This document shows, one piece after another, positions 15,850 to 32,988 of a stretch of 64,000 bases of DNA. The stretch is from positions 784,038-848,037 of the forward strand of contig NZ_AP024324.1 of NCBI RefSeq assembly GCF_018408855.1, in the 5' to 3' direction. Every line of letters begins with the position of its first letter. Position 1 is the stretch's first letter. The notes below the pieces were generated by a model, which was not told where the DNA came from, ran no database searches, and was given only the letters and a program-made list of their open reading frames with translations. Source of the DNA: Caballeronia sp. NK8. Its GTDB lineage: Bacteria; Pseudomonadota; Gammaproteobacteria; Burkholderiales; Burkholderiaceae. Made by a program: the position numbers and the translations under genes.

Positions 15850-15923
15850 CAGGTATGCAAGCGATGACGCTCGCGGCTCGCTACGCTTGGCGTCGTTCCA
15901 GTCGATCACTAACGGGAGAGTGC

Positions 15924-16685
15924 ATGCTGCCACGGGCGCCGGGGTTTTCCTTGCAGGGCAGACGCGCGCTGATCACGGGCGCGGGACGCGGCATCGGTCT
16001 CGCGGCAGCCGCCGCGCTCGCACAGGCGGGCGCGAGCGTGACGCTCGCCGCGCGATCGGCGGATGAGCTCGAACGCGCCTGCGCGCAGATCGACGCGGAA
16101 GGCGGCCAGAGCCGCCACATCGTGCTCGACGTGACCGACTCGCGCGCCGTGAACGCGGCGATCGACGAAGCCGGGCCTTTCGACATCCTCGTGAACTGCG
16201 CGGGAATGAATCGCCCGAAGCCGCTCGTCGATGTGACGGACGAAGACATCGACGCCATTCTCGATCTCAACGTGAAAGCCGTCTTTCATGTATCGCGCGC
16301 GGTGGCCAAGCGCATGCTGCGCGAAGGTATCGCGGGCTCGATCATCAACGTGTCCTCGCAGATGGGACATGTCGGCAGTCCGAAGCGCACGGTGTATTGC
16401 GCGTCCAAGCACGCGATCGAAGGCATGACGAAGGCGCTCGCGTGGGAACTCGGGCCGCATGGCATTCGCGTGAACACCGTCTGTCCAACCTTCATCGAGA
16501 CCGCGTTCACGGCGAGCATGTTCGATGCGCCCGGCTTTCGCGAATGGGTCACGGAACGGATCGCGCTCGGCCGCGTGGGACGCGTCGAGGAAGTCATGGG
16601 CGCGATCGTGTTTCTCGCCGGCGACGCATCGACGCTCATGACCGGCAGCGCGCTCATGCTCGACGGCGGCTGGACGGCCGCCTGA
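15924..16685 (+). CDS. short-chain dehydrogenase/reductase (SDR)
   Basis: The gene encodes 253 residues from the ATG at 15924, which has GGGAGAG upstream. Upstream open frame is only a shadow of the MFS gene. It is a classical SDR: cofactor motif TGAGRGIG near residue 20, the NCAG motif, catalytic Ser in NVSSQMG and YxxxK in YCASK at about residues 156-160. The C-terminus ends in SALMLDGGWTAA. It probably oxidises a hydroxy acid or reduces a keto acid in the pathway that also uses the following dehydrogenase. Confidence 0.92.
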   Translation: MLPRAPGFSLQGRRALITGAGRGIGLAAAAALAQAGASVTLAARSADELERACAQIDAEGGQSRHIVLDVTDSRAVNAAIDEAGPFDILVNCAGMNRPKPLVDVTDEDIDAILDLNVKAVFHVSRAVAKRMLREGIAGSIINVSSQMGHVGSPKRTVYCASKHAIEGMTKALAWELGPHGIRVNTVCPTFIETAFTASMFDAPGFREWVTERIALGRVGRVEEVMGAIVFLAGDASTLMTGSALMLDGGWTAA

Positions 16686-16716
16686 CACACATCAATCAAT
16701 AGAAGCAGGAAAGACG

Positions 16717-17679
16717 ATGAACGTATCGCAAGTGAATTCCGGCCAGCCGGTGGCGGTGGTCGGCGCGGGCCTCGTGGGCGCGGGATGGGCCATCGCATTC
16801 GCGCGCGCGGGCCTGAACGTGCGGATCTACGACGCCAATCCGCACACCGCATCGGCGGCGCTGCCGTGGGCGGCGAACCAGATCGCGGCGCTGCATCGGC
16901 ATGGACTGATCGATGAAGCGCCCGAAGCCGTCGCCGCGCGGCTCACGCTCGCGGACTCGCTCGCGCAAGCCATCGACGGCGCGGCCTACGTGCAGGAATC
17001 CGTGCTCGAACGCGTCGACGTGAAGCGGCAACTGATGCTCGATCTCGATGAGCTCGCCGACGCGCATGTCGTCATCGGCAGTTCGAGCTCGGGCATCAAG
17101 GCGTCCGACTTCGCCAACGACCTGACGATCTCGCCGCGCGTGCTGATCGCGCATCCGGTCAATCCGCCCTATCTCGTGCCGGTGGTGGAACTGGTGCCGT
17201 CGACACAGACGTCGCCGGACACGATCGCCTTCACGGAGCGTCTCATGCGCGGTATCGGCCAGAGCGTCGTGCATGTGCGCAAGGAGATCGAGGGCTTCGT
17301 GCTGAACCGCCTGCAGGCGGCGCTGCTGCGTGAAGCGTGGGCGCTTCAGCGCGACGGCATCGCGAGTTGCGAGGACATCGACAAGACCGTGCGCGACGGG
17401 CTCGGCTGGCGCTGGTCCTTCATGGGCCCGTTCGAGACGATCGATCTGAATGCGCCAGGCGGGGTTGCCGATTATGCGAACCGGCTGGGGCCGCTTTATC
17501 ACTCCATCGCCCGCTCGCGCACGGAAGACGGTCCGTGGGATGACGCGCTGATCGCGCGCGTCGAACGCGACCGGCGCGCCCATCTCCCCGCCGATGCACT
17601 CGCCGCGCGCCGCGACTGGCGCGACGAACGGCTGATGGCGTTCGCCGCCGTACGCGCGAAAGACGCAGACAACCGCTAG
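16717..17679 (+). CDS. 3-hydroxyacyl-CoA dehydrogenase family protein (lambda-crystallin/L-gulonate dehydrogenase-like)
   Basis: This 320-residue NAD-dependent dehydrogenase has an N-terminal Rossmann fold (VVGAGLVGAGWAIAFARAG) and the YVQESVLERVDVK stretch. A likely catalytic histidine lies in LIAHPVNPPYLVPVVELVP near residue 148. The C-terminal helical domain has EGFVLNRLQAALLREA and WRWSFMGPFETIDLNAPGG. This short single-domain form acts on free L-gulonate, carnitine or 3-hydroxybutyrate-type substrates as well as CoA esters. It starts 31 bp after the SDR with GAAGCAGGAAAGACG upstream and is probably in the same operon. Confidence 0.9.
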   Translation: MNVSQVNSGQPVAVVGAGLVGAGWAIAFARAGLNVRIYDANPHTASAALPWAANQIAALHRHGLIDEAPEAVAARLTLADSLAQAIDGAAYVQESVLERVDVKRQLMLDLDELADAHVVIGSSSSGIKASDFANDLTISPRVLIAHPVNPPYLVPVVELVPSTQTSPDTIAFTERLMRGIGQSVVHVRKEIEGFVLNRLQAALLREAWALQRDGIASCEDIDKTVRDGLGWRWSFMGPFETIDLNAPGGVADYANRLGPLYHSIARSRTEDGPWDDALIARVERDRRAHLPADALAARRDWRDERLMAFAAVRAKDADNR

Positions 17680-17694
17680 CGTCGCGGTCTGACG

Positions 17695-18147
17695 TCAGTC
17701 GGGGATTTCCGGCTCGACCAGTCGCGCCAGTTGAACCAGCGACTCCTGCCAGCCGAGATAGCACATCTCCACGGGAATGACGTCGGGCACGCCTTCCTGC
17801 ACGATGTTGAGTTCGGTGCCGCAGGACACCTGCCGCAACGAGACGGTGACGTGCATCTCGCCGGGCAGGTTCGGATCGTCGAAGCGGTCCGTGTAGCGGA
17901 TCTTTTCGAACGGCACCAGTTCGAGATACTCACCGCCGAACGAGTGGCTATGGCCGGTGCTGAAGTTGCGGAAGGACATCTTGTGCGTGCCGCCCGTGCG
18001 CGCTTCCATCTGATGGACCTGACAGGTGAACCCGTAGGGCGGAAGCCACTTTGCCATCGCGTCGGGTTCGAGGAAGGCGCGATAGATGCGCTCGGGCGTC
18101 GCGCGCAGCACGCGGTGAAGTCGGACGGTACCGGTGGTCGTAGTCAT
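17695..18147 (-). CDS. SRPBCC (AHSA1/START-like) family protein
   Basis: This 150-residue protein has the AHSA1-type hydrophobic-ligand-binding helix-grip fold. LHRVLRATPERIYRAFLEPDAMAKWLPP near the N-terminus and GGEYLELVPFEKIRYTDRFDD in the middle are the usual landmarks. It closes with GWQESLVQLARLVEPE. Members bind small hydrophobic ligands or act as stress proteins; no catalytic role can be read. It is convergent with the dehydrogenase gene and next to the left boundary of the island. Confidence 0.87.
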   Translation of the reverse strand: MTTTTGTVRLHRVLRATPERIYRAFLEPDAMAKWLPPYGFTCQVHQMEARTGGTHKMSFRNFSTGHSHSFGGEYLELVPFEKIRYTDRFDDPNLPGEMHVTVSLRQVSCGTELNIVQEGVPDVIPVEMCYLGWQESLVQLARLVEPEIPD

Positions 18148-18239
18148 GGTGTGTTCGCCTTTCGATGGAATGAGTTGGACACACTTCCACGACGATGCGC
18201 CGATGCCGGAATCGACATCGGCAGGATCAGGGAAAACGC

Positions 18240-18351
18240 TAGTCCTTCGGAAGCCCGAAGTGCGTCATGACGCCGTTCACACCCGACACGTTTTCCGCTG
18301 CGACGCGAAGGACGTTGCCTTCTTCCGCGCTGACGGCAAGCACCGCTTCGC
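18240..18351 (-). pseudogene. displaced 3'-end fragment of the CBS/BON-domain gene (left boundary repeat of the island)
   Basis: Positions 18244-18335 repeat 36054-36145 in the same orientation with 2 mismatches in 92 bp. This is the 3' end of the intact CBS/BON gene at 36049-36735. It encodes VSAEEGNVLRVAAENVSG and the terminal HFGLPKD before a stop. A further 17 bp (18335-18351) match 36226-36242, so about 80 bp are deleted between the two blocks. The fragment has no start and is fused to transposase-like sequence. It fits the displaced end of a gene that was an integration target. Confidence 0.82.
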
Positions 18352-18575
18352 TCTTCAAGCGTTTCGGACTGTCGCCTGATACCGCAGCGCTTCGAGCGTC
18401 TTGGCCTCTTCCGCGAGCGCGGTCGCCGGAACCCGATGCACCCCACGAGGTTTCGACGTCGGAAATCGACTGCGTCGACACGTCCAGCGTCGTCGCCACC
18501 GCGGCAACGCTCTGGTCGGCCTTTAACAGTCGAACCGCCTCCAGCTTGAACTCATGCCCGTTTCCTCTTGCTCGT
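18352..18575 (-). pseudogene. IS3-family transposase OrfA remnant
   Basis: Read leftward, the sequence gives HEFKLEAVRLLKADQSVAAV and continues as ATTLDVSTQSIS, the typical helix-turn-helix start of an IS3-type OrfA. The frame then degenerates. A shifted frame gives EEAKTLEALRYQATVR, which resembles the OrfA leucine-zipper region. It has no intact start, no OrfB and no clear terminal repeats. In one frame it reads straight into the CBS/BON remnant. It marks an old insertion at the left edge of the low-GC island. Confidence 0.65.
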
Positions 18576-19248
18576 ATTCTTGTTTATCCTCGCGTGAAAC
18601 TGGACGCTCACCAAGGCCCTCGATTTTCGAGGGCAAAAGCCCTTAGCACACCAACGCGAATCGGGCTCGCAAAGCCATTGTTGTACCTTCTCGTCGCCCC
18701 GTTCTAGTTCGTGCCATCAACACCGATACTACATGCATCAATCAATTTAACTAGTCTTTATCTGAGATACTAGTATTACTTCGTTTTCCAATAGTCAGCT
18801 CCGTTCCCAAAAGGTTTGGAGCAGATGGCGCCGGACGAGATGGTTTCCCAGGGTAGATCAATAAGCAGCTATGCCGCTATGTCAAAGGTGTTGTTCCTGC
18901 CAAATATATCAAAGACGGTTACGATATTCGATAATATCAACCATGTTACTAAGGATTACCAATTTATAACAAGCATGCCGAAGTTTCTACATCATCGAGG
19001 AATGCTTGCTTGAAGTTTTTCGATGCAAACAAATTTTTAGGAAATCTCCCGTTGCTTTTTACTTCACGAGATTTTTAACGATGACTCCCCTTTTGAGTCC
19101 GGCGTAAAAATAAGCATAACACAAGAACTGTCTGAATAACTCTTAAACCGATCTGACGCGACGACGGTGGCCCAATAGGAGAAATCCGGTTGTTGTGACT
19201 GTGTTTGAAAAAAAGCAAGACGTAGTTTCACAATGAGGATAATAAGAT
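18576..19248. other. AT-richer intergenic region upstream of the epimerase gene
   Basis: Base composition drops sharply here compared with the catabolic genes to the left, marking entry into the island. Just inside, CCTCGATTTTCGAGG at 18618-18632 forms a short perfect hairpin. A 65-codon open frame at 18816-19013 has no recognisable similarity or convincing ribosome-binding site and is not called. The promoter for the 19.2-25.6 kb cluster must lie here, but no element stands out. Confidence 0.4.
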
Positions 19249-20472
19249 ATGCTAAAAATAGGATATGTCATTGGCACTCGACCCGAGGCAGTCAAATGCG
19301 CGCCCCCAATCCTGGCAATGGAAAACGATGCGAGGTTCGAGCCCCTCCTGGTTTCGACCGGCCAGCACGCGGAAATGCTCTATTCCGCGCTGGACATTTT
19401 CGGAATCGTACCTGCCGCCGATCTTAAGGTGATGCGACCGGAACAAACACTTTCTGGAGTTACCGAACGCATTCTGCACGGCTTGGCAGAATTGCCGTTA
19501 ATGTGCGAACTTGACGCGATCATTGTTCATGGTGATACCGCAAGTACCGTCGCCGGGGCAATCTTCGGCTTTCAAAACAAGATTCCCGTCATTCACCTTG
19601 AAGCGGGATTACGTAGCACTCGGCTCGACTCCCCATTTCCCGAAGAGGGTAATCGGCGACTCGTCACGCAGATCAGTTCGTATCATCTCGCGCCCACTGC
19701 TGGAAATTATCTCAATCTGCTTCACGAGGGAATTGCTCCCAATCGCATCGCAATCACGGGAAATACCGTTGTCGACGCATTGTTCAGTTGTGTGCCTAAG
19801 GCGAGGGGCTATCACGATCCGGTGCTGGACGAAATAGAGAACGATCCGCGCCGCGTCGTATTGGCCTCGACGCATCGTCGAGAGTCCTGGCCCAAGCTCC
19901 ATATGCTTGCCGACGCAATGGCAGAAGTCGCGCAGCTGCCAAACGTGCGACTGGTGGTCCCCGTCCATAAAAATCCGGTCGTACGCAAGGCACTTCGTTC
20001 GAGACTCGATGGCCTTCAAAACGTCACATTACTCGAGCCACTACCCTACTTGGGATTTGTGCGACTGATGCTGCGTGCTGATCTAATACTTTCGGACAGC
20101 AGCGGCGCGGAGGAGGAGGGACCGGCGCTAGGCAAACCGACCTTGGTGCTCCGTGATATCAGCGAGCGCGGGGAAGCGATCTCTGCCGGGTCGGCCAAGC
20201 TCGTCGGACGAAGCAAAGAGGAAATCGTCGAGGAAGTCAGCGCTGTTCTGTTCAATGAAGCAGTCTACGAGCGATTCGTCTCCGGAGGTTGTCCCTATGG
20301 CGATGGAGCCGCCTCCGCTCGGGTGCTCGATGCAATAGCACATTTCTTCGGCAAGGGGTCGGCTGCCGAAGCCTATACCGGGAGAAGTCCCAGCATTCGC
20401 GCAAACTCAGAACGCTTCACTCAGGTAGGCGGTGTCGACACCATCCAGAATTTTGCTGGAGCGATTCTTTGA
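19249..20472 (+). CDS. wecB: UDP-N-acetylglucosamine 2-epimerase, non-hydrolysing
   Basis: This 407-residue protein has the WecB/MnaA-type GT-B fold. It begins IGYVIGTRPEAVKCAPP and has VHGDTASTVAGAIFGFQ near residue 87 and PVIHLEAGLRSTRLDSPFPEE with the family's catalytic acidic residues. STHRRESW near residue 206 and LSDSSGAEEEGPALGKP near 285 complete the set. The enzyme interconverts UDP-GlcNAc and UDP-ManNAc in the cytoplasm. It is about 30 residues longer than usual at the C-terminus. It heads an apparent five-gene cluster without any glycosyltransferase, which is odd for an envelope polysaccharide locus. The symbol is by family, not proven orthology. Confidence 0.88.
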   Translation: MLKIGYVIGTRPEAVKCAPPILAMENDARFEPLLVSTGQHAEMLYSALDIFGIVPAADLKVMRPEQTLSGVTERILHGLAELPLMCELDAIIVHGDTASTVAGAIFGFQNKIPVIHLEAGLRSTRLDSPFPEEGNRRLVTQISSYHLAPTAGNYLNLLHEGIAPNRIAITGNTVVDALFSCVPKARGYHDPVLDEIENDPRRVVLASTHRRESWPKLHMLADAMAEVAQLPNVRLVVPVHKNPVVRKALRSRLDGLQNVTLLEPLPYLGFVRLMLRADLILSDSSGAEEEGPALGKPTLVLRDISERGEAISAGSAKLVGRSKEEIVEEVSAVLFNEAVYERFVSGGCPYGDGAASARVLDAIAHFFGKGSAAEAYTGRSPSIRANSERFTQVGGVDTIQNFAGAIL

Positions 20473-21203
20473 ACATTGACGGCCAATGCGAATGGCGACC
20501 GCTTGCATTTTCAAGCGATCGGCTCAGGGCATTTGTGACTTTGGGCAATGGTCCACTTCTTCTCAAAGGACAAGCTATCGTCGTAAATGCAAACGCAAAC
20601 GTGATGAATGTAGAGGGATGGAAACGCGAGCCCCTCCCTTCCATGTCCTCCATCCAACTGCAAGATGTCGTGGTCGATGCCTCGCCGAATCTTCTCTTGC
20701 TTTCACCTTCCGCCGACTTGCGGCCCAGGGACATCATAAAAGACCCAAACTGGACGCAGTTCTGCGGTGGCGACCAGCGGATTAATCTCTGGAGTTCGCC
20801 TCGGGATACGATCGGGGAGGTACTGCTCAACACCGCCGCACTAAGCCACGCAGCAGATGAAAACCCGAGTTCAACGGCCCATTACGAACGGTTCAGCGTC
20901 GTCGCCAATCTCTGGTTCGCTCCAGCGGGAACAGACTGCCTGATTCATCGCGAGCATTCGTTCATCGAGATTCATTCGCAAATCGTTGGCGTAGGTCACA
21001 TGCAGAAGTTCCATTCGCAGAATCACGCGAGTCTGTATGCGGCCGTTGCCCTTGCTCCCGGTGCAACAACCGAACGTCCGTTTTGCGTCGTAAATAATGA
21101 AGGCGCTTTTATTTATCCGTGGCATCAGTACTTCGCAGAGTCAGACTGCATCTGGCTTGCGATTGAATATCACCCACTAAAAAATGGCAATGAACATGCG
21201 TGA
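20469..21203 (+). CDS. AUDH-cupin-like protein (second-domain homologue of aldos-2-ulose dehydratase), hypothetical
   Basis: I chose a TTG start at 20469 that overlaps the epimerase stop (TTGA) with GGAG 7 bp upstream; it gives 244 residues. The open frame continues upstream only through the epimerase gene. The best-conserved part is about residues 155-240: HREHSFIEIHSQIVGVGHMQ, FHSQNHASLYAAVAL, then YPWHQYFAESDCIWLAIEYH. This His/Glu-rich pattern resembles the metal-binding cupin region of fungal aldos-2-ulose dehydratase/isomerase. The next gene resembles that enzyme's beta-propeller. The assignment is from recalled motifs and was not searched. Confidence 0.55.
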   Translation: MNIDGQCEWRPLAFSSDRLRAFVTLGNGPLLLKGQAIVVNANANVMNVEGWKREPLPSMSSIQLQDVVVDASPNLLLLSPSADLRPRDIIKDPNWTQFCGGDQRINLWSSPRDTIGEVLLNTAALSHAADENPSSTAHYERFSVVANLWFAPAGTDCLIHREHSFIEIHSQIVGVGHMQKFHSQNHASLYAAVALAPGATTERPFCVVNNEGAFIYPWHQYFAESDCIWLAIEYHPLKNGNEHA

Positions 21204-22467
21204 CGGCCTCCCTACGCTCCCGATTCCAACGTTTGAGAAGATCATCGTTGCAGATCAACTCCGGGATGGCTATTGGCTTGAAGCACCCGACATCAATCAG
21301 GACGGAAAGCCCGATCTGTTCGGCTATGGACTCTCGCTAGGCGAGATCTATTGGTACGAAAACGAAAGCTGGAAGCGACATCTTGTTGTCGATGGCATTA
21401 ATATGCCAGTTGGAGGAGACTACGCTGACGTGACCGGAAATGGTTATCCGGACATCATCGTCTGTTACGACCTCTATGGAGCCGGCGGCACCCTTTACGA
21501 CGCCAATCCAACGGGCGGCAAGATAGATTGGATTGAAAACCCCGGCCTGGACTTGGCGGCAGGCCGTCGTTGGACCCGACATTACGTCGGCCGTACCACG
21601 GGCATGCACCGGCTCCGAGCAGGGCATTTCACTCAAGAGAAGCGTCTCGAGATAGCCGGCGTTCCGATTGTTCCGCACGGAAATATCCATTCGCTCTTGC
21701 CGATTGTCCTATTTTCCGAACCCGAGAATGTTTCCTCTGCCTCTGAATGGACGAAATCGACAATAGACGACAGTTGCTTTCGTCTTGTACACGGCGCGGA
21801 AAAGAAGCGAGGCCTGATCTCAGGCTCAGATCGAGATTCGCTTCTGCTTGCATCTGACGAGGGCGTGACCTGGCTATATTACGATGCAGAAGCGGAAGGT
21901 TGGAAATCGGTTCTGATCGGTGAAGGAGAACGTACTCAGTTTGAAACGACCGGATTCCGCGGCAGCGGCGATCTCGATGTCGGTCGCATCGGAACGGACC
22001 CTTTTGCTTACGTTGCTGCTGTTGAGCCATTTCACGGCAACACGGTAGCAGTCTATGTTAAGGAGTCCCTTGGGCAGGCGCCCGAGAAGGCCGAATGGAA
22101 ACGTTTCATCCTTGACGTCTTTGGCGATCCAAATGAAAGTGGAGAAGGCCCAGGTCACCAGATCGTATGCGCCGACTTTGACGGTGACGGTGAGGATGAA
22201 TTTCTCGTGGCGCTTCGAGGACCATGGCCATGGCAAGGCGTTTTTTACTATAAGGCGATTGACGTAACCAACGGCATCTTCACCAGATGGCGCGTCTCAG
22301 ACGAATCAGTAGCTCGAATCGCGGTCGCAGATTTTAATGGCGATGGTCGCCTCGACTTCGCAACGATCGCTTATTCCGTTCCAAAATATTTCGTCGCGAA
22401 ACAGGCCCGGGTTGCAGTACACCTGAACACTTTTTCTTCTACCCAGGACCGAAGGGGCAACAAATAA
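21184..22467 (+). CDS. FG-GAP/VCBS beta-propeller protein resembling the AUDH propeller domain
   Basis: This 427-residue protein is a beta-propeller. It has Asp-rich calcium-type loops: DINQDGKPDLFGYG near residue 38, DVTGNGYPDIIV near 84, DFDGDGEDEFLVA near 335 and DFNGDGRLDFATIA near 385. GMHRLRAGHF and VPHGNIHSLLP around residues 140-177 are likely metal-binding histidines. Fungal aldos-2-ulose dehydratase, which turns glucosone into cortalcerone and 1,5-anhydrofructose into microthecin, combines such a propeller with cupin domains. Here propeller and cupin are separate genes overlapping by 20 bp. No signal peptide is seen. Function is inferred. Confidence 0.6.
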   Translation: MAMNMRDGLPTLPIPTFEKIIVADQLRDGYWLEAPDINQDGKPDLFGYGLSLGEIYWYENESWKRHLVVDGINMPVGGDYADVTGNGYPDIIVCYDLYGAGGTLYDANPTGGKIDWIENPGLDLAAGRRWTRHYVGRTTGMHRLRAGHFTQEKRLEIAGVPIVPHGNIHSLLPIVLFSEPENVSSASEWTKSTIDDSCFRLVHGAEKKRGLISGSDRDSLLLASDEGVTWLYYDAEAEGWKSVLIGEGERTQFETTGFRGSGDLDVGRIGTDPFAYVAAVEPFHGNTVAVYVKESLGQAPEKAEWKRFILDVFGDPNESGEGPGHQIVCADFDGDGEDEFLVALRGPWPWQGVFYYKAIDVTNGIFTRWRVSDESVARIAVADFNGDGRLDFATIAYSVPKYFVAKQARVAVHLNTFSSTQDRRGNK

Positions 22468-22651
22468 CCAGAAATATCACCCCGTCTAGTGCGTGTGGCG
22501 CGCTTTCTTGGGCGGGGTGGAGGCATCGAGGCAAAAATTTGAGCAGTGTAGAGCGCGATTTTGCTGCCCGACTGACGACGCAAACCAGGAGGTCGACACG
22601 CGGCGAGAAAATCATTGCGTCAATTCATAAATCAAAAAAGAGGTAACACGG

Positions 22652-23860
22652 ATGACCACGCTACCGAAGGTCTCGGAGCCAAGCGCAAAAATCGGAAGAA
22701 GCGGAAGACTGCCGTCTCTGCCCAGTCTGACGGGCATGCGGTTTATCGGCTCTCTCGTGATCTTTCTCTTTCATGTATCTGTGGTGAATTCACCAATTCC
22801 ACCAAACCTGACAGTCAATCCATTTAAAGATCAGCAAGCGGCGGATTGGTTTGCCTTCGTCTTCGCTCAGCTCGGCTACATGGGCGTATCATTTTTCTTC
22901 ATTCTCACTGGATTCATCATTACCTGGTCGGCATATCCATTTACCGAGTCGAAATGGTTATTCTGGAAGAGAAGAATTGTAAAAATATACCCCAATCATC
23001 TGGTCATCTCACTGCTTGCTTTAGTTCTATTTTCCTGGAACTACACGCCCATATCTACAGCAATAAAGAACACCCTACTGATTCACGCGTTCTTTCCGCA
23101 ATCGAACGTATATGTTAGCGTTAATCCGCCCGCCTGGTCTTTGTGCGTGGACATGCTGTTCTATCTAGCATTCCCGTTTTTGATCAGAAGACTTGCGCCT
23201 CTTTCTGGAAGAGCCATATGGGCCTGGATCGCGGCAGTGACAGCAGTAATCTTCGCGATCCCGCTCATCAACGACGCGCTCATTCCCAATTACCCTAAGT
23301 CACCTATCACCCCAATATCCGCGGATCAGTTTTGGTTCGGCTATATTTTTCCGGTTACCCGGATCTTCGACTTTATATTGGGCGCCCTGCTCGCGAGAAT
23401 CGTAATGTTAGGGCTCTGGCCCCGGCTCGGGATTCTAGCCTCCTCATGTCTTATCATCGCGAGCGCCGTCGCCGCCAAATTCGTGCCTTTCATATACGGC
23501 TTGAACGCGATCACAATAATCCCAATCGCTGCTCTAATCTGCGCCACAGCGACGGCAGATTTCAAAGGAAAATATTTATTTCTGCTCAGGCACAAGACGA
23601 TGCAAAAGCTCGGAGATGTTTCGTTCGGGTTTTATATCTGTCAGGGTATCACCATCTTTTACCTAAGAACACTGCTCGACGGAACTTACAGCATGTGGGC
23701 GTCGGTAGGGCTAATTGCCTGCAGTTTTGTATTAACGCTGTTTGCAGGATGGCTTCTCTATACCGCGATCGAAAGGCCTGCCATGCGGCGCTGGGGACGT
23801 AGCCGACGCGAAATCAGGCCGGATCTGAAGAAGGAACTGGATCCTCTGAAGCCCGTTTAA
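22652..23860 (+). CDS. acyltransferase 3 family (OafA-like) membrane protein
   Basis: This 402-residue integral membrane protein has about ten helices. Family features are the helix-1 stretch LTGMRFIGSLVIFLFHVSVV near residue 27 with the likely catalytic His, GVSFFFILTGFIITW near residue 76, and FWKRRIVKIYPNHL near residue 105 with the conserved basic residues. CVDMLFYLAFPF follows at about 165. Such proteins O-acylate sugars or lipids across the inner membrane. It lies 184 bp after the propeller gene and probably modifies the product or a carrier sugar of this cluster. The acyl donor and acceptor are unknown. Confidence 0.9.
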   Translation: MTTLPKVSEPSAKIGRSGRLPSLPSLTGMRFIGSLVIFLFHVSVVNSPIPPNLTVNPFKDQQAADWFAFVFAQLGYMGVSFFFILTGFIITWSAYPFTESKWLFWKRRIVKIYPNHLVISLLALVLFSWNYTPISTAIKNTLLIHAFFPQSNVYVSVNPPAWSLCVDMLFYLAFPFLIRRLAPLSGRAIWAWIAAVTAVIFAIPLINDALIPNYPKSPITPISADQFWFGYIFPVTRIFDFILGALLARIVMLGLWPRLGILASSCLIIASAVAAKFVPFIYGLNAITIIPIAALICATATADFKGKYLFLLRHKTMQKLGDVSFGFYICQGITIFYLRTLLDGTYSMWASVGLIACSFVLTLFAGWLLYTAIERPAMRRWGRSRREIRPDLKKELDPLKPV

Positions 23861-23990
23861 GCGACGCAATGAAGTACGCGTATTAGAGAACTTCCAAGCC
23901 TCTGAACCGAGGCGCTGCTGGGATTCAAGCAATACCGTGAACGCACCCTCCCCGAGGGCTGAGATTAACTGATATCGATAAGGAATACTC

Positions 23991-25646
23991 ATGACTATAA
24001 ATAGACGAAAGTTCATGGAAGCCGGTCTTGCAACAGTTGGGGCGGGAGCCGTCTTCACCAGGTCGGTCGAGTCGAAGGAGGTGTCGAGTTCTGAGTTTGA
24101 ACGAGGAGCTCGGATCGGATCGGAAGATTCTCGTTTTCCGGATCTCGTTAGCGGAAACAACCAGCGATTTGTTGCCAAACCTGACTATGTACGCATGATC
24201 CGCTCGTCCGAAGATGCTCGGCTCGCGGTTCAGGAAGCAGTTTCGGCGAACAAGCGCGTGTCGATCCGCAGCGGTGGCCATTGTTTTGCGGATTTCGTTT
24301 GTAACCCCTCTGTACAGGTGATCTTGGACATGTCGGAAATGCGAAATGTCTATTTCGATCGGGACGCGATGGCATTCGCTGTCGAGCCGGGTGCTCATTT
24401 GATGGACGTCTACGAGCGCCTTTACAAGGGTTGGGGCGTGACTATACCGGGCGGAATTTGCTATAGCGTAGGCGCCGGCGGGCACGTCGCCGGTGGTGGA
24501 TACGGCCTCCTGTCCAGGGCACACGGCTTGGTGGTGGATCATCTCTGGATGGTGGAAGTGGTCGTCGTCGATCAGATGGGAAAAGCGCGACTCGTGCGTG
24601 CCTCGCGTGACAAAAATGATCCGAATCGGGATCTTTGGTGGGGCCATACGGGCGGCGGAGGAGGCAACTTTGGCGTCGTCACAAAATATTGGTTTCGCTC
24701 GCCGGAAGCACAAGCGCCCGATCGATCAAAGCCGCTTATTTCTCCTCCGTCAACCGTTTTGGTCAGCGCTGTGTCGTTTGACTGGAACGACATGACTGCC
24801 GCTGACTTCTCCAGGATTTTATTGAACTTCGGCGCGTGGCACGAGAAGAATAGCGCGCCGGATTCGCCTTATGCTCGACTATCAAGTCTGTTCAACGTTA
24901 GTCCGCGAGCAACCGGGTCCATGGGCATGTTCACGCAGGTGGACGCAACTATCCCTAATCCAGAAAAGCTGCTTACGGATTACATGAACGCGATTCTCGA
25001 AGGGACGAGCATTGTGCCTAGGCCCACGACCAAGCCCATCGGGGAGATTCGCGCTCTGCCGAATCACTTTGCACCGACCCGGTTGCCTTGGTTGCAGGCT
25101 ACCCGGCTCGTTGGTACGAATAATCCGACCATCACCAATCCAACTTCGCGCGGTGGACACAAATCCGCTTACATGAAGCGAAATTTTACCCCGAAGCAGG
25201 TCGATACCCTTTACAAGGCTATGACTCGCGACGATTTCAACAATCCAGACACGATGCTCGTCTTGTTCTCGTTTGGTGGTCAGGTAAACGCGATGAAGCC
25301 TGAAGATACAGCAAACGTTCAACGAACTTCTGTTTTTAAGATGTGTTTCCAGACATTTTGGCAATCTGAAAGCGAAGACGCATTTTATCTCGGCTGGCTG
25401 CGAAACCTCTATTCTGAGTTTTTTTCCGAGACTGGTGGCGTACCGGTTCCGAATGACCAGGCAGACGGATGTTACATCAATTATCCTGATAGAGACGTCA
25501 GTGATCCGAATTTCAATACTTCTGGCGTTCCGTGGTCAGAGCTTTATTTCAAGGGAAATTATCGTCGGCTTCAGGCGGTGAAGACCAAGTGGGATCCCAG
25601 GAATTTCTTCCGGCACTCACTTTCTATCGAACCCTTAAAGGCATAG
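23991..25646 (+). CDS. Tat-exported FAD-linked oxidase, berberine-bridge/carbohydrate-oxidase type
   Basis: This 551-residue protein has a twin-arginine signal (NRRKFMEAGLATVGAGAVF). The PCMH FAD domain carries IRSGGHCFADF with His97, and GGICYSVGAGGHVAGGGYG with Cys157. A His/Cys pair 60 residues apart is the hallmark of bicovalent FAD attachment, as in gluco-oligosaccharide oxidase. The C-terminal BBE motif is present (YINYPDRD, then YFKGNYRRLQAVKTKWDPRNFF). It should oxidise an alcohol or sugar in the periplasm with O2 as acceptor. As last gene of the cluster it may act on the product of the AUDH-like pair or supply its substrate. Confidence 0.85.
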   Translation: MTINRRKFMEAGLATVGAGAVFTRSVESKEVSSSEFERGARIGSEDSRFPDLVSGNNQRFVAKPDYVRMIRSSEDARLAVQEAVSANKRVSIRSGGHCFADFVCNPSVQVILDMSEMRNVYFDRDAMAFAVEPGAHLMDVYERLYKGWGVTIPGGICYSVGAGGHVAGGGYGLLSRAHGLVVDHLWMVEVVVVDQMGKARLVRASRDKNDPNRDLWWGHTGGGGGNFGVVTKYWFRSPEAQAPDRSKPLISPPSTVLVSAVSFDWNDMTAADFSRILLNFGAWHEKNSAPDSPYARLSSLFNVSPRATGSMGMFTQVDATIPNPEKLLTDYMNAILEGTSIVPRPTTKPIGEIRALPNHFAPTRLPWLQATRLVGTNNPTITNPTSRGGHKSAYMKRNFTPKQVDTLYKAMTRDDFNNPDTMLVLFSFGGQVNAMKPEDTANVQRTSVFKMCFQTFWQSESEDAFYLGWLRNLYSEFFSETGGVPVPNDQADGCYINYPDRDVSDPNFNTSGVPWSELYFKGNYRRLQAVKTKWDPRNFFRHSLSIEPLKA

Positions 25647-25975: not shown

Positions 25976-27217
25976 ATGAATAAGCGACTGATCTTGCTTC
26001 TTGCAGCAATCTTGGTCGCCGGCGGTGCGTGGGGTTTGTTGCACGCCCGTGGCGCCCGACCTGATGCTTCAGAAGCGGCTGACATTCTGCCGGAAGTCAG
26101 CGTTGCACACGGCGTGATTCGCGACGTAGACGAGACCGATCACTTCACCGGTCATTTGCAAGCGACGGATACGGTGCAGCTCCGCCCGAGAGTGAACGGC
26201 TACATCAATTCCGTGCACTTTCAGGAAGGCACTCTCGTGAAAAAGAATCAGCTTCTCTTCCAGATTGATCCAGGCCCATACCAAGCGGAAGTCAACCGCA
26301 TCTCCGCGAACCTCGTCCAGGCCCGTGCTGAGCTGGCGCTTGCTCAAGCCAACGCATCTCGCGCAGAGCGCTTGCTCGAACAGCACGCCGTGTCGCATGA
26401 GGAAGCCGAACGGTTGGTTACGGCCGCGCAAAGTGCGAAGGCCCAAGTGGCCGCAACGGTGGCTGCCCTGACCGCGGCTCAACTGAATCTCGGCTATACG
26501 CAGGTCCGCGCACCCATCGATGGCCGCGTCGGCAATGCGTTGATCACCAAGGGCAATCTCGTTACCAGTAGCGACGTGCTGGCGAGCGTGGTTAGTGTGA
26601 ATCCGATCTTCGCCTATTTCGATGTGGATGAGCAAGCCTACTTGCGCCTCTTGCGCGCCCACGGACAGGAAGTTGGTAAAGCCGCCGGTGTGCAAGTGGC
26701 TATGGCGCTGCTTGACGAGACGGGGTACCAGCATCCCGGTCGCGTCGATTTCGTCGATAACCAGTTGCGCACGTCTTCCGGCACTATCCGCTTGCGTGCG
26801 GTATTTGACAACGCTGACGGCGCCTACACCCCCGGACTGTACGTTCGCCTACGCCTGGATGGCGGAAAACGCCAATCGACCATGCTCGTGGACGATCGCG
26901 CAATAGGCACGGATCTCAGCAACAAGTTCGTGTTCGTTGTCGACGCGGACCACAAGGTGAACTACCGGCGAGTCGAGATTGGACCTCTGTTTGCTGGTCT
27001 GCGCGTAATCAAAGATGGTCTCCGTCGCGACGACCTCATCGTTGTCAACGGCATTCAGCGCGTTCGTCCCGGTATCAAGGTGACGTCGGTACCCGTCACA
27101 ATGACCGTCAACCTCGCCAAAGCTGACCAAGCCGAAATTGAAGCGACGGCTAAGCCTCCTGTCGCGTCTTCCGTGCTAGCGAAAGTATCGGCACCAGCGG
27201 AGGTACGCAAGCAATGA
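25976..27217 (+). CDS. RND efflux periplasmic adaptor (membrane fusion) protein, MexE/AcrA-like
   Basis: This 413-residue adaptor has an N-terminal membrane anchor or signal (LILLLAAILVAGGAWGLLHA). The split lipoyl domain appears as LRPRVNGYINSVHFQEGTLVKKNQLLFQIDP and YTQVRAPIDGRVGN, flanking an Ala/Gln-rich coiled-coil hairpin at about residues 100-150. A beta-barrel and membrane-proximal domain follow. It bridges the inner-membrane pump and the outer-membrane channel. The permease gene overlaps its end by 4 bp. Substrates may be antibiotics, solvents or a product of the neighbouring island cluster. Confidence 0.93.
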   Translation: MNKRLILLLAAILVAGGAWGLLHARGARPDASEAADILPEVSVAHGVIRDVDETDHFTGHLQATDTVQLRPRVNGYINSVHFQEGTLVKKNQLLFQIDPGPYQAEVNRISANLVQARAELALAQANASRAERLLEQHAVSHEEAERLVTAAQSAKAQVAATVAALTAAQLNLGYTQVRAPIDGRVGNALITKGNLVTSSDVLASVVSVNPIFAYFDVDEQAYLRLLRAHGQEVGKAAGVQVAMALLDETGYQHPGRVDFVDNQLRTSSGTIRLRAVFDNADGAYTPGLYVRLRLDGGKRQSTMLVDDRAIGTDLSNKFVFVVDADHKVNYRRVEIGPLFAGLRVIKDGLRRDDLIVVNGIQRVRPGIKVTSVPVTMTVNLAKADQAEIEATAKPPVASSVLAKVSAPAEVRKQ

Positions 27218-30200
27218 AGTACATTCCCCGTTTCTTTATCGACAGGCCCATTTTCGCCGGAATACTTTCTGTCCTGCTCGTGATTGCCGGCTCCGTGGCA
27301 GCCTTCAAACTGCCGATCAGCGAGTATCCGGAAATTGTTCCGCCGACAGTGATCGTGACGGCTCACTATCCTGGCGCCAGCCCCGAAGCGATTGCCCAGA
27401 TCGTCGCGACTCCGATTGAAAAGCAGATCAACGGTGTGGAGGGAATGCTCTATACGTCGTCGCAATCAACAAGCGATGGCCAGATGACCTTGACGGTGAC
27501 GTTCGCCTTGGGCACCAATCTGGATGTCGCTCAAGTGCAGGTGCAGAATCGCGTTGCTCAGGCATTGTCGAAACTACCTGCGGAAGTGCAAAGACTTGGC
27601 GTCACCACGGAAAAAAGCTCGCCAGATCTGACCTTGGTAGTGCACCTGGTTTCGCCAGACGGACGCTACGATCAACTCTATCTGGCCAACTACGCCCGGG
27701 TGCATGTGAAGGACGAGTTGTCACGTCTCGATGGCGTAGGCCAGGTGATCTTCTTCGGCTCCGGCGAATACTCCATGCGTATCTGGCTCAACCCCGACCG
27801 CATGGCCGCGCTGAAACTGAACACCGGCGATGTGGTTCGCGCAATCCGTGAGCAAAACGTGGAAGTAGCCGCAGGGTCGCTGAATATGCCGCCCAATTCT
27901 GGTAGTTCGGCCTTTCAACTGAGCGTGAACACCCAGGGCAGGCTCATCGACGAAGAACAATTCCGCGACATCATCGTGCGCAAGGGTCTCGACGACGGCG
28001 TCGTTCACCTGCGCGACGTTGCGCAAGTCGAACTGGGCGCCGATACCTACGCCTTGCGCGCGACCCTCAATGGACTACCCGCTATTGCAATGCCGGTCAG
28101 TCAGCGCCCCGGCGCCAACGCGATCCATGTCGCCGACGAAGTACGCGCGACCATGGAACGCCTGAAGAAAGACTTTCCTCAGGGATTGGAGTACCGCATG
28201 GACTACGACACCACGATCTTCGTGCGTGCCTCGATCGCCGCTGTGGTGCGCACTTTGTTCGAAGCGATCCTGTTGGTCGTTCTCGTGGTGATTCTTTTCC
28301 TGCAGACGTGGCGTGCCTCTGTCATTCCGCTGATTGCCGTGCCGGTGTCGCTGATCGGCACCTTCGCGGTCATGTATGTGGTGGGCTTTTCCCTGAACGC
28401 GTTGTCATTGTTCGGCCTCGTCCTGGCAATCGGAATCGTGGTCGACGACGCAATCGTGGTCGTGGAAAACGTTGAGCGGCATATAGCATCGGGCTTGAGC
28501 CCGCGGGACGCAAGTCGCCAGGCTATGCAGGAGGTAACGAGTCCGATCGTAGCAACCGGTGTGGTGCTATGCGCGGTGTTCGTGCCTGCCGCCTTTGTCA
28601 GCGGTCTCACCGGACAGCTCTACCGCCAGTTTGCTCTGACCATCGCGATCTCCACGGTGATTTCCGCGTTCAACTCGCTGACATTGAGTCCCGCGCTCGC
28701 GGCGATGCTGCTGAAGCCGCACGACGCCCCGAAGGACGCAGTGAGCGTATGGATGGAGCGCCTGTTCGGCTGGCTGTTTCGCCCGTTTAATCGGTTTTTT
28801 GCCGGCGCCACAAACCGGTATGTGCGCTGTGTGCGAGTCATGCTGAGCCGTGGAAAGATCAGCTTGACGTTATATGCAGGCCTGGTCGCACTGGCCGCCT
28901 TTGGGTTCATGAAGGTGCCCACTGGATTCATACCCGCACAAGACAAACTGTTTGTCATGACACTCATCTCGCTTCCAAACGGAGCATCACAAGACCGCAC
29001 AGAAGAGATAACCCGGCGCGTGAGCGAGATTGCCGCCAAACAGCCCGGCGTACAGGAGGTCTTTTCCTTTTCAGGATTGTCGCCGAGCAACTTCACCAAT
29101 AGTACTAATTCATCCATTGTGCCGTTGATCTTGAAGCCGTTCGAAGAGCGTCGCGACCCTTCGCTCTCCGCTAGCGCAATCATCGATTCCTTGAACAAGA
29201 AGTTCGCCTCGATCCAGGACGCCAGCATTGTGGTCGTTCCCCCTCCGTCGGTTCAAGGGCTCGGTACCATCGGAGGCTTCCGCGTGCAGATCGAGGATCG
29301 TGCCGGGCTGGGTTACGCCGAAATGCAGAAACAGCTCGCCACAATCATCCAGAAAGCGGCCGCGCTCCCTGAGCTGACTCCGCTTTTCAGCGGCTTTCAA
29401 GCGAACGTGCCGCAGATCGATATCGACGTGGATCGCGAAAAGGCCAAGGCTCAGGGTGTTGATCTCTCCGACGTGGCAGAAACCATGCAGGCATATCTCG
29501 GCTCACTCTACGTGAATGACTTCAATCGCTTCGGACGCACTTACCAGGTGAACGTTTCCGCGGAGCCGAGCTTTCGTCACGAGCCTGAGGACATCGCTGG
29601 TCTGAAAACGCGCAACGCACAAGGCGAGATGGTGCCTTTGGGATCCTTCATCAATGTTCGCCGGACTGCCGGCCTCGAACGCGCCATGCGCTACAACAGC
29701 TTTCCGACCGCGGAGATCAACGGCGGCCCTGGTCCCGGCTATAGCAGCGGTCAAGCCCAGGCGGCGATGGAGAAACTGCTCAACGAGAATCTGCCCAATG
29801 GTATGAGCTTCGAGTGGACGGAGCTTGCGTACCAGCAGATTTTGGCCGGCAACACCGCAATCCTGATCTTTCCGCTGTGTGTACTGCTGGTGTTCATGGC
29901 GCTGTCGGCCCTGTATGAAAGCTTTTCACTCCCGCTGGCGGTGATCCTGATCGTGCCGATGGTGCTGCTTTCTGCAATCACCGGTGTATGGCTTACCAAA
30001 GGTGACAACAACATCTTCACCCAGATTGGTTTGATCGTCCTCGTAGGCCTGGCCTGCAAGAACGCAATTCTGATTGTCGAGTTCGCGCGCGAAGCCCAGA
30101 TCGAAGGAATGGACCGTCATCAGGCGGTGCTCGAGGCCGCCCGCCTCCGCCTCCGTCCGATTCTGATGACATCGATCGCTTTCATCATGGGCGTGGTTCC

Positions 30201-30390
30201 ATTGGTCACATCGCACGGCGCCGGAGCGGAAATGCGCCATCCGATGGGCGTAGCTGTGTTCGCCGGCATGCTTGGCGTGACGTTTTTCGGTCTGCTTTAT
30301 ACGCCGCTTTTCTATGTCGTCCTGCGCAGTTGGGTCGAGCGCCGCGCGCATCAGCACAAAACCGCGTTCGCCGTGGGAGAGCACCAATGA
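27214..30390 (+). CDS. RND efflux transporter permease, HAE1 family (MexF/AcrB-like)
   Basis: This 1058-residue protein has the full AcrB-type layout. Helix 1 is preceded by the FFIDRPIFAGILSVLLVIAG start. A first large periplasmic loop follows, then helices 2-6 with GIVVDDAIVVVENVER near residue 405, which carries the proton-relay aspartates. A second periplasmic loop and a closing helix bundle complete it. The length is normal and no damage is seen. It uses proton motive force to export hydrophobic or amphipathic compounds through the tripartite complex. Its stop overlaps the start of the channel gene (ATGA). Confidence 0.95.
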   Translation: MKYIPRFFIDRPIFAGILSVLLVIAGSVAAFKLPISEYPEIVPPTVIVTAHYPGASPEAIAQIVATPIEKQINGVEGMLYTSSQSTSDGQMTLTVTFALGTNLDVAQVQVQNRVAQALSKLPAEVQRLGVTTEKSSPDLTLVVHLVSPDGRYDQLYLANYARVHVKDELSRLDGVGQVIFFGSGEYSMRIWLNPDRMAALKLNTGDVVRAIREQNVEVAAGSLNMPPNSGSSAFQLSVNTQGRLIDEEQFRDIIVRKGLDDGVVHLRDVAQVELGADTYALRATLNGLPAIAMPVSQRPGANAIHVADEVRATMERLKKDFPQGLEYRMDYDTTIFVRASIAAVVRTLFEAILLVVLVVILFLQTWRASVIPLIAVPVSLIGTFAVMYVVGFSLNALSLFGLVLAIGIVVDDAIVVVENVERHIASGLSPRDASRQAMQEVTSPIVATGVVLCAVFVPAAFVSGLTGQLYRQFALTIAISTVISAFNSLTLSPALAAMLLKPHDAPKDAVSVWMERLFGWLFRPFNRFFAGATNRYVRCVRVMLSRGKISLTLYAGLVALAAFGFMKVPTGFIPAQDKLFVMTLISLPNGASQDRTEEITRRVSEIAAKQPGVQEVFSFSGLSPSNFTNSTNSSIVPLILKPFEERRDPSLSASAIIDSLNKKFASIQDASIVVVPPPSVQGLGTIGGFRVQIEDRAGLGYAEMQKQLATIIQKAAALPELTPLFSGFQANVPQIDIDVDREKAKAQGVDLSDVAETMQAYLGSLYVNDFNRFGRTYQVNVSAEPSFRHEPEDIAGLKTRNAQGEMVPLGSFINVRRTAGLERAMRYNSFPTAEINGGPGPGYSSGQAQAAMEKLLNENLPNGMSFEWTELAYQQILAGNTAILIFPLCVLLVFMALSALYESFSLPLAVILIVPMVLLSAITGVWLTKGDNNIFTQIGLIVLVGLACKNAILIVEFAREAQIEGMDRHQAVLEAARLRLRPILMTSIAFIMGVVPLVTSHGAGAEMRHPMGVAVFAGMLGVTFFGLLYTPLFYVVLRSWVERRAHQHKTAFAVGEHQ

Positions 30391-31874
30391 GAAACGTCTT
30401 CTGCCTCACCGCGCTAACGACTTTGTTGGCTTTGGCCGGTTGTGTAACCATCGGACCGGATTATCAGTCACCGGCTCCTGCACCGGTAAAAACGCTGCAC
30501 GGTTTCGACGCGTCCATGCAAAATAGCTCCCCGTTCGAGGCGGCCTGGTGGAAACAGTTTGGCGACCCGATCCTGGATGCCCTGATCCAGCGAGCCATGC
30601 AAGACAGTCTTGACCTGGGCATCGCCTTATCTCGTGTGCGCGAATCGCGTGCGCTGCTGAGAGGCACCGAAGCTCATCAGCTACCCACCGTGGACGCTGT
30701 AGGTGCCCTGCAGCGTAGTCGTGAACAACTGGTGGGTCTCGGCCCCACTCCGAAGACCATAGAGACGGCCCAGCTCGGCTTCGATGCAAGCTGGGAGTTG
30801 GATCTGTTCGGCGGCATCCGTCGCGCGGTGGAGGTCTCCGAAGCCAATCTGCAGGCCAGCGAAGCGTCGCTGCGGGATGCCCAAGTCATGGTGATCGCCG
30901 AAGTAGCGCGCAACTACTTCGTGTTGCGCGGGACCCAGCTTCGGATGAACATCGCGCAGCGCGATATCGAAAATCAACGCGATACCTTGAAGCTGATCCG
31001 TGCACGTTATGAAGTTGGACGCAGTTCCGAGCAGGACGTGTCGAGCGCCGCTTCCCGCCTGAGTGGGGTCGAGGCTCAGGTGCCTTTGCTGGAGACTCAG
31101 GCGCAGGCCGCTCAGTTTCGCTTGGCGGTGCTTCTTGGATCACGGCCAGGCGACCTCGATATCGACCTCTCGCCAAAAAGCTTCAGGCCGATTCTGACCA
31201 GTCTTCCGATCGGCGGAGCCGAACAAGTTTTGGCCCGCAGGCCTGATATTCGCATTGCCGAACGCGAGTTGGCAGCGGCGAATGCACGTATCGGCGTAGC
31301 CAAGTCCGAATTCTTCCCGCGTGTCTCACTGGGCGGGTTCATCGGTTTTCTTACCATCGCCGGCGCTGGTTTCGGAGGCGGGCAATTCGGGGGGCCAAAT
31401 TCGCTGGCGTGGTCTTTGGGACCAAGCATTAGCTGGTCCGGACTCAATGTGCAGCGGGCTCGGGCCAATCTGCATGTCAGTGAGGCGCGTGCAGATGCCG
31501 CCCTGGCCAACTATCAGCAAACCGTGCTGCGCGCACTCGAGGAGGTAAGCAACGGCCTGGTCGCCTACAACCAGGAACGCGTCCGGATGGACAGACTGGT
31601 CGAGCAGACTCAGCAGAGCAAACGCGCGGCGGATCTTGCCCGCATCCGCTATTTGGGAGGCGCTACTGATTTCCTGCAACTGCTCGACGCGCAGCGCACC
31701 CAGCTTGCCGCCGAGGATGAATTGGCTCGAACCGAGGCTGCGATCAATATTGATACGGTGGCGATTTACAAGGCGATCGGCGGCGGCTGGGAAGCTTGCG
31801 GCGATGAACGCTGCTCGCAAGTGAGTGCACTTGTATCCAATGGAAGTTCCAAAGCCGCCGGAGTTGGAAGGTAG
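30387..31874 (+). CDS. RND efflux outer-membrane lipoprotein channel (NodT/OprM family)
   Basis: The gene encodes 495 residues from the ATG overlapping the permease stop. A lipoprotein signal ends in ALAGC (LALAGCVTIGPDYQSP), so Cys18 or so is the acylation site. Two repeated coiled-coil/beta hairpin halves follow: LDALIQRAMQDSLDLGIALSRV, then LARRPDIRIAERELAAANARIGVAKSEFFP around residue 285. This forms a trimeric TolC-like duct. A short Cys-containing tail after KAIGGGW is slightly unusual. The three pump genes form one operon. Confidence 0.94.
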   Translation: MRNVFCLTALTTLLALAGCVTIGPDYQSPAPAPVKTLHGFDASMQNSSPFEAAWWKQFGDPILDALIQRAMQDSLDLGIALSRVRESRALLRGTEAHQLPTVDAVGALQRSREQLVGLGPTPKTIETAQLGFDASWELDLFGGIRRAVEVSEANLQASEASLRDAQVMVIAEVARNYFVLRGTQLRMNIAQRDIENQRDTLKLIRARYEVGRSSEQDVSSAASRLSGVEAQVPLLETQAQAAQFRLAVLLGSRPGDLDIDLSPKSFRPILTSLPIGGAEQVLARRPDIRIAERELAAANARIGVAKSEFFPRVSLGGFIGFLTIAGAGFGGGQFGGPNSLAWSLGPSISWSGLNVQRARANLHVSEARADAALANYQQTVLRALEEVSNGLVAYNQERVRMDRLVEQTQQSKRAADLARIRYLGGATDFLQLLDAQRTQLAAEDELARTEAAINIDTVAIYKAIGGGWEACGDERCSQVSALVSNGSSKAAGVGR

Positions 31875-32070: not shown

Positions 32071-32988
32071 TCATCCAACCCTTCCTTCGACCGTAAGGTA
32101 GTCCAGGAAGAGCCTGAGGCGAGCGGGGAGCTGGGCCGACTTGCCTACGTAGACTGCATGAAACGGTTCGCGCCTGACCGGCAGCGAATCGGGAAGCAAC
32201 GGCACAAGTTGACCGGAGGCCAGTTCACTTCGGATCGTGAACTCTGCGAGCCGCGCGGGCGCTACTCCCGCAAGCGCGAGCCGTCGAATGCCTTCACCGT
32301 CGCTCACTCTCACACGTTCGAGTACTGGCTCCCCCGCCTGAAGCCATTCTCCGCCGGCACGCAGATGGACGAATCCCAGGCGATCCTGAGCCAGGAGTTC
32401 ATCGATGCTTCCGGGCATTCCATGGCGGTCGATCCATGTCGGCGAAGCAACCACGATCAGACGGGTGTCGCCGAGGGATCTCGCGGTCAGATTGGAAGCT
32501 GATAACTCGCCTGCCCGGATCGCGATATCACACCCCTCCTTAAACAAATCTGTAACGATGTCGCTCAGGGTGATATCGATGCTGATATTGCTGTGGTCGC
32601 CGAGAAACTTCCGCAAGATGTGCGCGAGCACGTGAGCAACATAGCTTGCAGAACTGTTTATCCGAATGCGACCGGACGGAACCTTGGTACCGATCGCCTC
32701 ACGCTCTGCCAATTCGATATCGGCGAGAATGCGTCGCACCCGGTCATAGAATTTTTCCCCCTCGGGCGTAAGCCCTACGTGACGCGTCGATCGGCGTAGA
32801 AGCGCGGTTCCAAGCCTGTGCTCCAGCCGACTCATCAGCTTACTCACCCCGGAAGGCGATAAGCCCAGGGCGCGTCCAGCCTGCGAGAATCCACCTCGTT
32901 CAACGACGCTCACGAAAACCGTCATCTCATCTGTTCTGTCCACGTTGTGCGGAGATTCCAGTCTTCTGTTCACAATTGCTTTTCTCAC
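32071..32988 (-). CDS. LysR-family transcriptional regulator
   Basis: This 305-residue LysR has its HTH at about residues 22-78 (EMTVFVSVVERGGFSQAGRAL, then SPSGVSKLMSRLEHRLG). The effector domain begins near residue 108 with RIRINSSASYVAHVLA. It belongs to the large group resembling DmlR/AaeR-type regulators. It is divergent from the SGNH hydrolase / aldo-keto reductase genes and convergent with the RND genes. The divergent pair is the more likely target, but control of the pump (as with MexT) cannot be excluded. Confidence 0.92.
   Translation of the reverse strand: MRKAIVNRRLESPHNVDRTDEMTVFVSVVERGGFSQAGRALGLSPSGVSKLMSRLEHRLGTALLRRSTRHVGLTPEGEKFYDRVRRILADIELAEREAIGTKVPSGRIRINSSASYVAHVLAHILRKFLGDHSNISIDITLSDIVTDLFKEGCDIAIRAGELSASNLTARSLGDTRLIVVASPTWIDRHGMPGSIDELLAQDRLGFVHLRAGGEWLQAGEPVLERVRVSDGEGIRRLALAGVAPARLAEFTIRSELASGQLVPLLPDSLPVRREPFHAVYVGKSAQLPARLRLFLDYLTVEGRVG

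Follow-up and report, generated by a model that had tools for sequence, protein, structure and literature searches.

A WecB-family protein as a proposed UDP-glucose lyase in a gene cluster with a split aldos-2-ulose dehydratase homolog

A compact gene cluster of Caballeronia sp. NK8, located in a 64,000-nucleotide stretch of contig NZ_AP024324.1 (positions 784,038 to 848,037; hereafter the window), combines a homolog of WecB, a non-hydrolysing UDP-N-acetylglucosamine (UDP-GlcNAc) 2-epimerase, with a separate cupin and beta-propeller that resemble the two parts of fungal aldos-2-ulose dehydratase (AUDH). It is proposed here, with a probability of roughly 0.55, that the WecB-family enzyme has turned into a UDP-glucose lyase making 1,5-anhydrofructose (AF), founding a bacterial anhydrofructose-to-pyranone cluster in which it replaces the apparent glucan lyase of related loci. 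The route would probably lead from UDP-glucose through AF to a small reactive pyranone, a fungal-type pathway with an unexpected starting enzyme, and a small AF-derived hydroxypyranone is considered slightly better than an even bet as the product. This proposal is based on homology, predicted fold, synteny and the exchange of genes between loci. The five cluster genes lie co-directionally, head to tail, at 19249-25646, where the epimerase homolog and cupin genes overlap by 4 nt and the cupin and propeller genes by 20 nt:

19249..20472, + strand: WecB-type protein (non-hydrolysing UDP-GlcNAc 2-epimerase family, TIGR00236), proposed UDP-glucose lyase/1,5-anhydrofructose synthase
20469..21203, + strand: stand-alone AUDH-type double cupin of 244 aa, proposed dehydratase or tautomerase
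21184..22467, + strand: stand-alone AUDH-type beta-propeller of 427 aa (PF22301, 4a7k), proposed partner dehydratase/isomerase
22652..23860, + strand: Acyl_transf_3 membrane acyltransferase (PF01757, 6e-23), proposed to O-acylate the product
23991..25646, + strand: BBE-family flavin adenine dinucleotide (FAD) oxidase with a twin-arginine translocation (Tat)-type N-terminus and bicovalent-flavin motifs, proposed tailoring oxidase/desaturase

The first of these proteins passes the TIGR00236 model with 350.3 bits against a cut-off of 210, and its closest PDB entries are KasQ (7vyy) and Escherichia coli WecB (1vgv/1f6d). It shares with these enzymes both family and catalytic residues, where D96, E118, E132/E133, H209, E306 and R307 are kept in all 57 aligned cluster copies (57 of 58, the fragmentary copy of locus L039 being excluded). 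Unlike WecB and KasQ, however, the cluster copies have other genomic partners, are proposed to stop after elimination, and carry DSSG..EEG in 57 of 57 cases in place of the canonical loop DSGG..EEA. Residue 285 is serine in every cluster copy, as opposed to glycine in 12 of 12 comparison paralogs, and residue 291 is glycine in every cluster copy, as opposed to alanine in 9 of the 12. The same S285/G291 signature is present in 120 of 120 listed homologs (the best 120 of 6108 found, the window copy included). These two positions lie either side of a glutamate (window E289, KasQ E291), which has been assigned to UDP re-addition in excerpts of a KasQ study (PMC8869731), while the base aspartate is retained. 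In a phylogeny the cluster epimerases form one clade (ultrafast bootstrap 78, SH-aLRT 99), with the comparison paralogs on long branches.

The mechanism described for the WecB family is an anti-elimination of UDP that yields 2-acetamidoglucal (PMC8869731), and elimination of this type on UDP-glucose would yield 2-hydroxyglucal, the enol form of AF. In the proposed first step, the WecB homolog would bind UDP-glucose, take the hydrogen from C2 and eliminate UDP, leaving 2-hydroxyglucal to tautomerise to AF. The cupin and propeller would then dehydrate and isomerise AF, by analogy with AUDH, to a pyranone of the ascopyrone or microthecin type.

The relationship of this pair to the fungal enzyme (Phanerochaete AUDH, 4a7k/4a7y/4a7z) is seen in the propeller, which is homologous over nearly its whole length, matches PF22301 at 1.9e-53 (181 bits, cut-off 27) and the AUDH structure 4a7k at 2.9e-71, and shows conservation across 19 aligned sequences, the window included. 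For the cupin, a family profile found no match among PDB sequences; its predicted model matches the AUDH double-cupin fold, and H160, H163, E167, H169, H219 and H235 are invariant in 30 of 30 aligned sequences. AUDH is itself counted among the cupin dehydratases (PMC4795551, in part). Whereas AUDH is one bifunctional polypeptide of roughly 900 aa, the window encodes two separate overlapping reading frames of 244 and 427 aa with a WecB homolog as partner, and the pair is a split AUDH homolog, not AUDH proper. By eye, neither protein carries a signal peptide. Matches of the propeller to calmodulin were taken as chance, involving loops of the calcium-binding type, and no relative was found among viral contigs.

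To place the pair in context, 80 loci were assembled, 79 from a profile scan of genome contigs plus the window, with partner genes called by tblastn within the locus DNA covered, where some contigs are short; the loci were collected via the cupin, whose presence is therefore by construction. An epimerase homolog was found in 58 loci and a GH31 gene in 18, with both in none and neither in four. The propeller accompanies all 58 epimerase loci and 6 of the 18 GH31 loci, so that the split AUDH-like pair postulated by a first-pass annotation of this DNA, together with its conserved co-occurrence in other genomes, is borne out. The epimerase homolog, for which the first-pass annotation had offered no role, is the constant partner in the cluster and probably the entry enzyme of the pathway. 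Two loci from metagenome-assembled genomes (MAGs), L074 of Cytophagales and L076 of Micrarchaeota, each hold a cupin homolog, and neither locus gave a match to an epimerase, GH31 or propeller.

Most of the GH31 genes show features expected of glucan lyases. Both lyase signatures, QDMT(T)P and TNITP, occur in 12 of the 18 loci; in the distant L077, L078 and L080 the QDMT motif is present with the second not seen, L053 shows the second only, and the GH31 sequences of L035 and L042 are too short for motif reading. In 10 aligned bacterial GH31 sequences the QDMT nucleophile motif and an asparagine equivalent to N459 are invariant. In the profile built from these 10, this asparagine falls on chain position 448 of 2x2h, the red-algal lyase, a residue numbered N459 when the offset of nucleophile D553 is applied. 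Maltase-glucoamylase, in common with glucosidases, carries isoleucine there; the best single stretch scores 180.6 bits with 2x2h as opposed to 78.5 with maltase-glucoamylase. Asparagine at N459 marks GH31 lyases, which release the enol of AF (PMC12441222, excerpted text). The cluster is like the fungal and red-algal AF pathway (alpha-1,4-glucan lyase, AF dehydratase, ascopyrone tautomerase) in its predicted AF intermediate and ascopyrone-type products, and a GH31 lyase-like gene is retained next to the cupin in relatives from cyanobacteria, Paenibacillus and other groups; it differs in that the window and actinomycete clusters have a nucleotide-sugar enzyme for the lyase, which would make UDP-glucose the starting material in place of starch or glycogen. 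In L077, L078 and L080, from Flavobacteriaceae and alphaproteobacterial MAGs, it was also observed that distant cupin-domain proteins of about 370-390 aa adjoin a GH31 gene with QDMTTPS.

The exchange was also followed outside the loci. Among 17 epimerase-like hits in 13 genomes (nine GH31-type, four no-partner), the loop was readable in 15 and was DSGG or DSGT, never DSSG. GH31 matches occurred in 7 of 10 genomes (six epimerase-type and the same four no-partner), and in the four of those genomes with a readable motif (two epimerase-type) it was always of the glucosidase kind. The cupins linked to an epimerase form one clade (support 83/93).

Propellers also occur in other contexts. Of 246 Streptomyces genomes searched, 16 contained a propeller, 10 of them adjoining a cupin and an epimerase and six having neither within about 1.5 kb; five of these six regions were examined at length, and the sixth (L133) over 3.2 kb. 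In four of the five, a pyranose-oxidase gene lies near the propeller, where the three scanned are just over the TIGR02462 cut-off and the fourth is a match at 88% identity. All four also have an IolE-like gene beside the propeller (three scanned pass the TIGR04379 cut-off, the fourth is a 46% match):

L134:5316-9262, L135:8391-12360, L136:6825-10784, L138:5824-9683 (Streptomyces): groups of pyranose oxidase, IolE-like TIM barrel and propeller without cupin

Such groups could be the bacterial equivalent of the glucosone route of fungi. In bacteria, enzymes of the pyranose-oxidase family can act on positions other than C2, so C2 oxidation is only likely here. Elsewhere, the pair or one of its halves thus accompanies a gene whose product probably makes AF (GH31) or a 2-ketosugar (pyranose oxidase). 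The distribution, in which some GH31 loci have the cupin and lack the propeller, and some propellers accompany an IolE-like dehydratase in a region lacking the cupin, would fit an AF-dehydrating cupin and an isomerising propeller. It mildly favours a cupin that acts first on AF.

Several observations weigh against a UDP-glucose lyase feeding an AUDH-like pair. All canonical catalytic residues are kept, which is compatible with plain 2-epimerisation, and residues alone cannot separate a lyase from an epimerase; in addition, KasQ gave no 2-hydroxyglucal from UDP-glucose, according to the excerpts of its study (PMC8869731). In-cluster galU, from which a supply of UDP-glucose is suggested, occurs in only 18 of the 58 epimerase loci, two of them at 39-41% identity; in favour of the proposal, the in-cluster galU is an extra copy in nine of nine genomes, chosen for in-cluster galU, each of which has at least one further full-length galU outside the locus. 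Ranking by whole-sequence E-value places maltase-glucoamylase, which has two catalytic units, before 2x2h. Because the epimerase-linked cupins and the cluster epimerases each form one clade, the epimerase/GH31 exchange is close to a single replacement. The cupin and propeller are not obligate partners, since 12 of the 18 GH31 loci lack the propeller, and in the nine such genomes searched it is missing throughout. Propellers without the expected partners are found in the fifth Streptomyces region (L137), where the propeller has a ThuA gene as its neighbour and the search for a pyranose oxidase gave no match, and on a Persicobacter plasmid (L117), where propeller and IolE-like gene (8001-9215 and 13949-14842) lie 4.7 kb apart and 17 kb of sequence gave no match to a cupin, an epimerase or GH31.

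Of the alternatives, the one that survives best, while still unlikely, is that the WecB homolog is an ordinary epimerase converting UDP-GlcNAc to UDP-N-acetylmannosamine, with the AUDH-like pair acting either on 2-acetamidoglucal or on a keto sugar derived from an amino sugar, to give an amino-sugar pyranone or a modified nucleotide sugar. This would agree with the TIGR00236 score and the conserved catalytic residues, and KasQ, whose substrate is UDP-GlcNAc, has been described to free 2-acetamidoglucal on long reaction (PMC8869731, excerpts). Against it, the cluster copies have the clade-specific DSSG..EEG loop in place of DSGG..EEA, the window genome has two further WecB genes of canonical type, in-cluster galU in 18 of the 58 loci suggests a supply of UDP-glucose, and the gene with which the homolog is exchanged encodes a GH31 lyase-type protein that would act on glucans; the core also lacks a glycosyltransferase.

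Improbable by comparison is a scheme in which the FAD oxidase makes a 2-ketosugar, in the manner of pyranose oxidase, for dehydration by the AUDH-like pair, leaving the epimerase peripheral. The oxidase does have carbohydrate oxidases among its relatives, and in other Streptomyces a pyranose oxidase lies beside the propeller; a founding oxidation, as the first-pass annotation had it, nevertheless fits poorly with an oxidase that is missing, within the DNA covered, from 10 of the 58 loci keeping epimerase, cupin and propeller, as opposed to an epimerase in 58 of 58, and whose N-terminus is of Tat type by eye, with none on the pair. Nine of these ten oxidase-less loci have a distinct short-chain dehydrogenase/reductase (SDR) gene instead. 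The window oxidase contains FAD_binding_4 and BBE domains, has TamL, the putative hexose oxidase 2wdw, AknOx, CrmK and GilR as its closest PDB relatives, and aligns with the AknOx/TamL/hexose-oxidase branch over about residues 33-548. It shares the bicovalent-flavin histidine and cysteine motifs of that branch, which occur in 45 of 48 oxidase reading frames including that of the window, and differs in its Tat-type NRRKFM stretch and in a core without polyketide or peptide genes; a twin-arginine motif is present in 20 of 48 called N-termini, calls that are unreliable. TamL and AknOx, the nearest characterised relatives, are late tailoring enzymes.

Equally improbable is a catabolic or protective pathway disposing of keto sugars with no secreted metabolite, for which bacterial use of AF (PMC12441222, in part) and the IolE-like enzymes adjoining some propellers could be cited, since several features look like specialised metabolism: pumps for export, regulators of the StrR-like and sigma types, an acyltransferase, and a patchy occurrence (16 of 246 Streptomyces genomes and 1 of 58 from the genus of the window).

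For the proposed AF route, the final stage would be export by the RND (resistance-nodulation-division) pump, or by major facilitator superfamily (MFS) pumps elsewhere, with the Tat-exported bicovalent FAD oxidase then oxidising or desaturating the product and the acyltransferase capping a hydroxyl. A small sugar-derived product had already been preferred to a polysaccharide, and this preference holds: a polysaccharide or O-antigen role is considered unlikely given the partner genes and the reading frames scanned, none of which encodes a glycosyltransferase. By comparison of structures, ascopyrone P is 2,3-dihydrokojic acid, and a kojic-acid-type product is for this reason possible as a guess. 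The pump (25976-31874) and a LysR gene follow the five cluster genes:

25976..27217, + strand: RND membrane-fusion protein (PF16576), probable export
27214..30390, + strand: RND transporter (PF00873), probable export
30387..31874, + strand: RND outer-membrane factor (PF02321, 2.1e-43)
32071..32988, - strand: LysR regulator (PF00126/PF03466), possibly of the cluster

In L002, the sole other Burkholderiaceae locus examined, the RND genes follow in the same order, with identities to the window of 67% for the membrane-fusion protein (in the same place), 87% for the transporter and 64% over 293 residues for the outer-membrane factor, where the contig ends. LysR homologs (28-41%) occur in seven proteobacterial cluster loci (L002, L003, L004, L019, L055, L066 and L072); the family is very common, and the link to the cluster is weak.

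Other genes recurring in the 58 epimerase loci are an acyltransferase and an FAD oxidase (48 each), an MFS pump (47) and a second one (34), an SDR (39, which may include unrelated SDRs; that of the window is the upstream gene near 15915), an MmyB-like regulator (35), an alpha/beta hydrolase (32) and a luciferase-like monooxygenase (25). On one annotated plasmid copy the gene order is galU, a streptomycin-type (StrR-like) regulator, MFS, SDR, sigma factor, MFS, FAD protein, wecB, a hypothetical protein, a VCBS protein, acyltransferase and hydrolase; the regulator, sigma factor and MFS genes of this copy count in favour of the proposal. Also observed in 29 of the 58 epimerase loci was A3 (e.g. 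L037:8403-8930 on the minus strand), a protein of some 175 residues that contains an HHPHL motif; the one member scanned has no Pfam or NCBIfam match.

This compact gene set is found in many actinomycetes and in some bacteria associated with insects; Burkholderiaceae, Xenorhabdus, Serratia and Pseudomonas are among its carriers. Around the window, the propeller family is found in 1 of 58 same-genus genomes, 1 of 398 family genomes over the cut-off and 1 of 398 sampled across the phylum, each match being the window's own; weak PF22301 matches in eight same-family genomes (E 4.7e-5 to 8.5e-4) fall below the cut-off and are uncounted. The five cluster genes have a G+C content of 49-56%, as opposed to 64-65% upstream and 57-60% downstream, and the gene set looks horizontally acquired. 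A GC-rich block at 11800-18700, with MFS-like reading frames (by eye) and HpcH/HpaI-type lyase, SDR, 3-hydroxyacyl-CoA dehydrogenase-like and AHSA1 genes, is apparently a catabolic set unrelated to the cluster.

The earlier remark that no bacterial system of this kind has been described agrees with the open-licence literature, where the matches listed include no such bacterial cluster or kojic acid pathway; subscription journals lie outside this scope, and a description there is possible. According to excerpts of PMC12441222, AF is produced in E. coli through a pathway not yet defined, and the fungal compounds ascopyrone and microthecin are called antibacterial. If the proposal is true, bacteria would gain a nucleotide-sugar route to 1,5-anhydrofructose, with no copy of the cluster claimed for E. 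coli. A function would be suggested for many genes now annotated wecB, 'hypothetical protein' or 'VCBS repeat-containing protein', and the clusters would suggest that uncharacterised pyranones derived from sugars form a widespread family.

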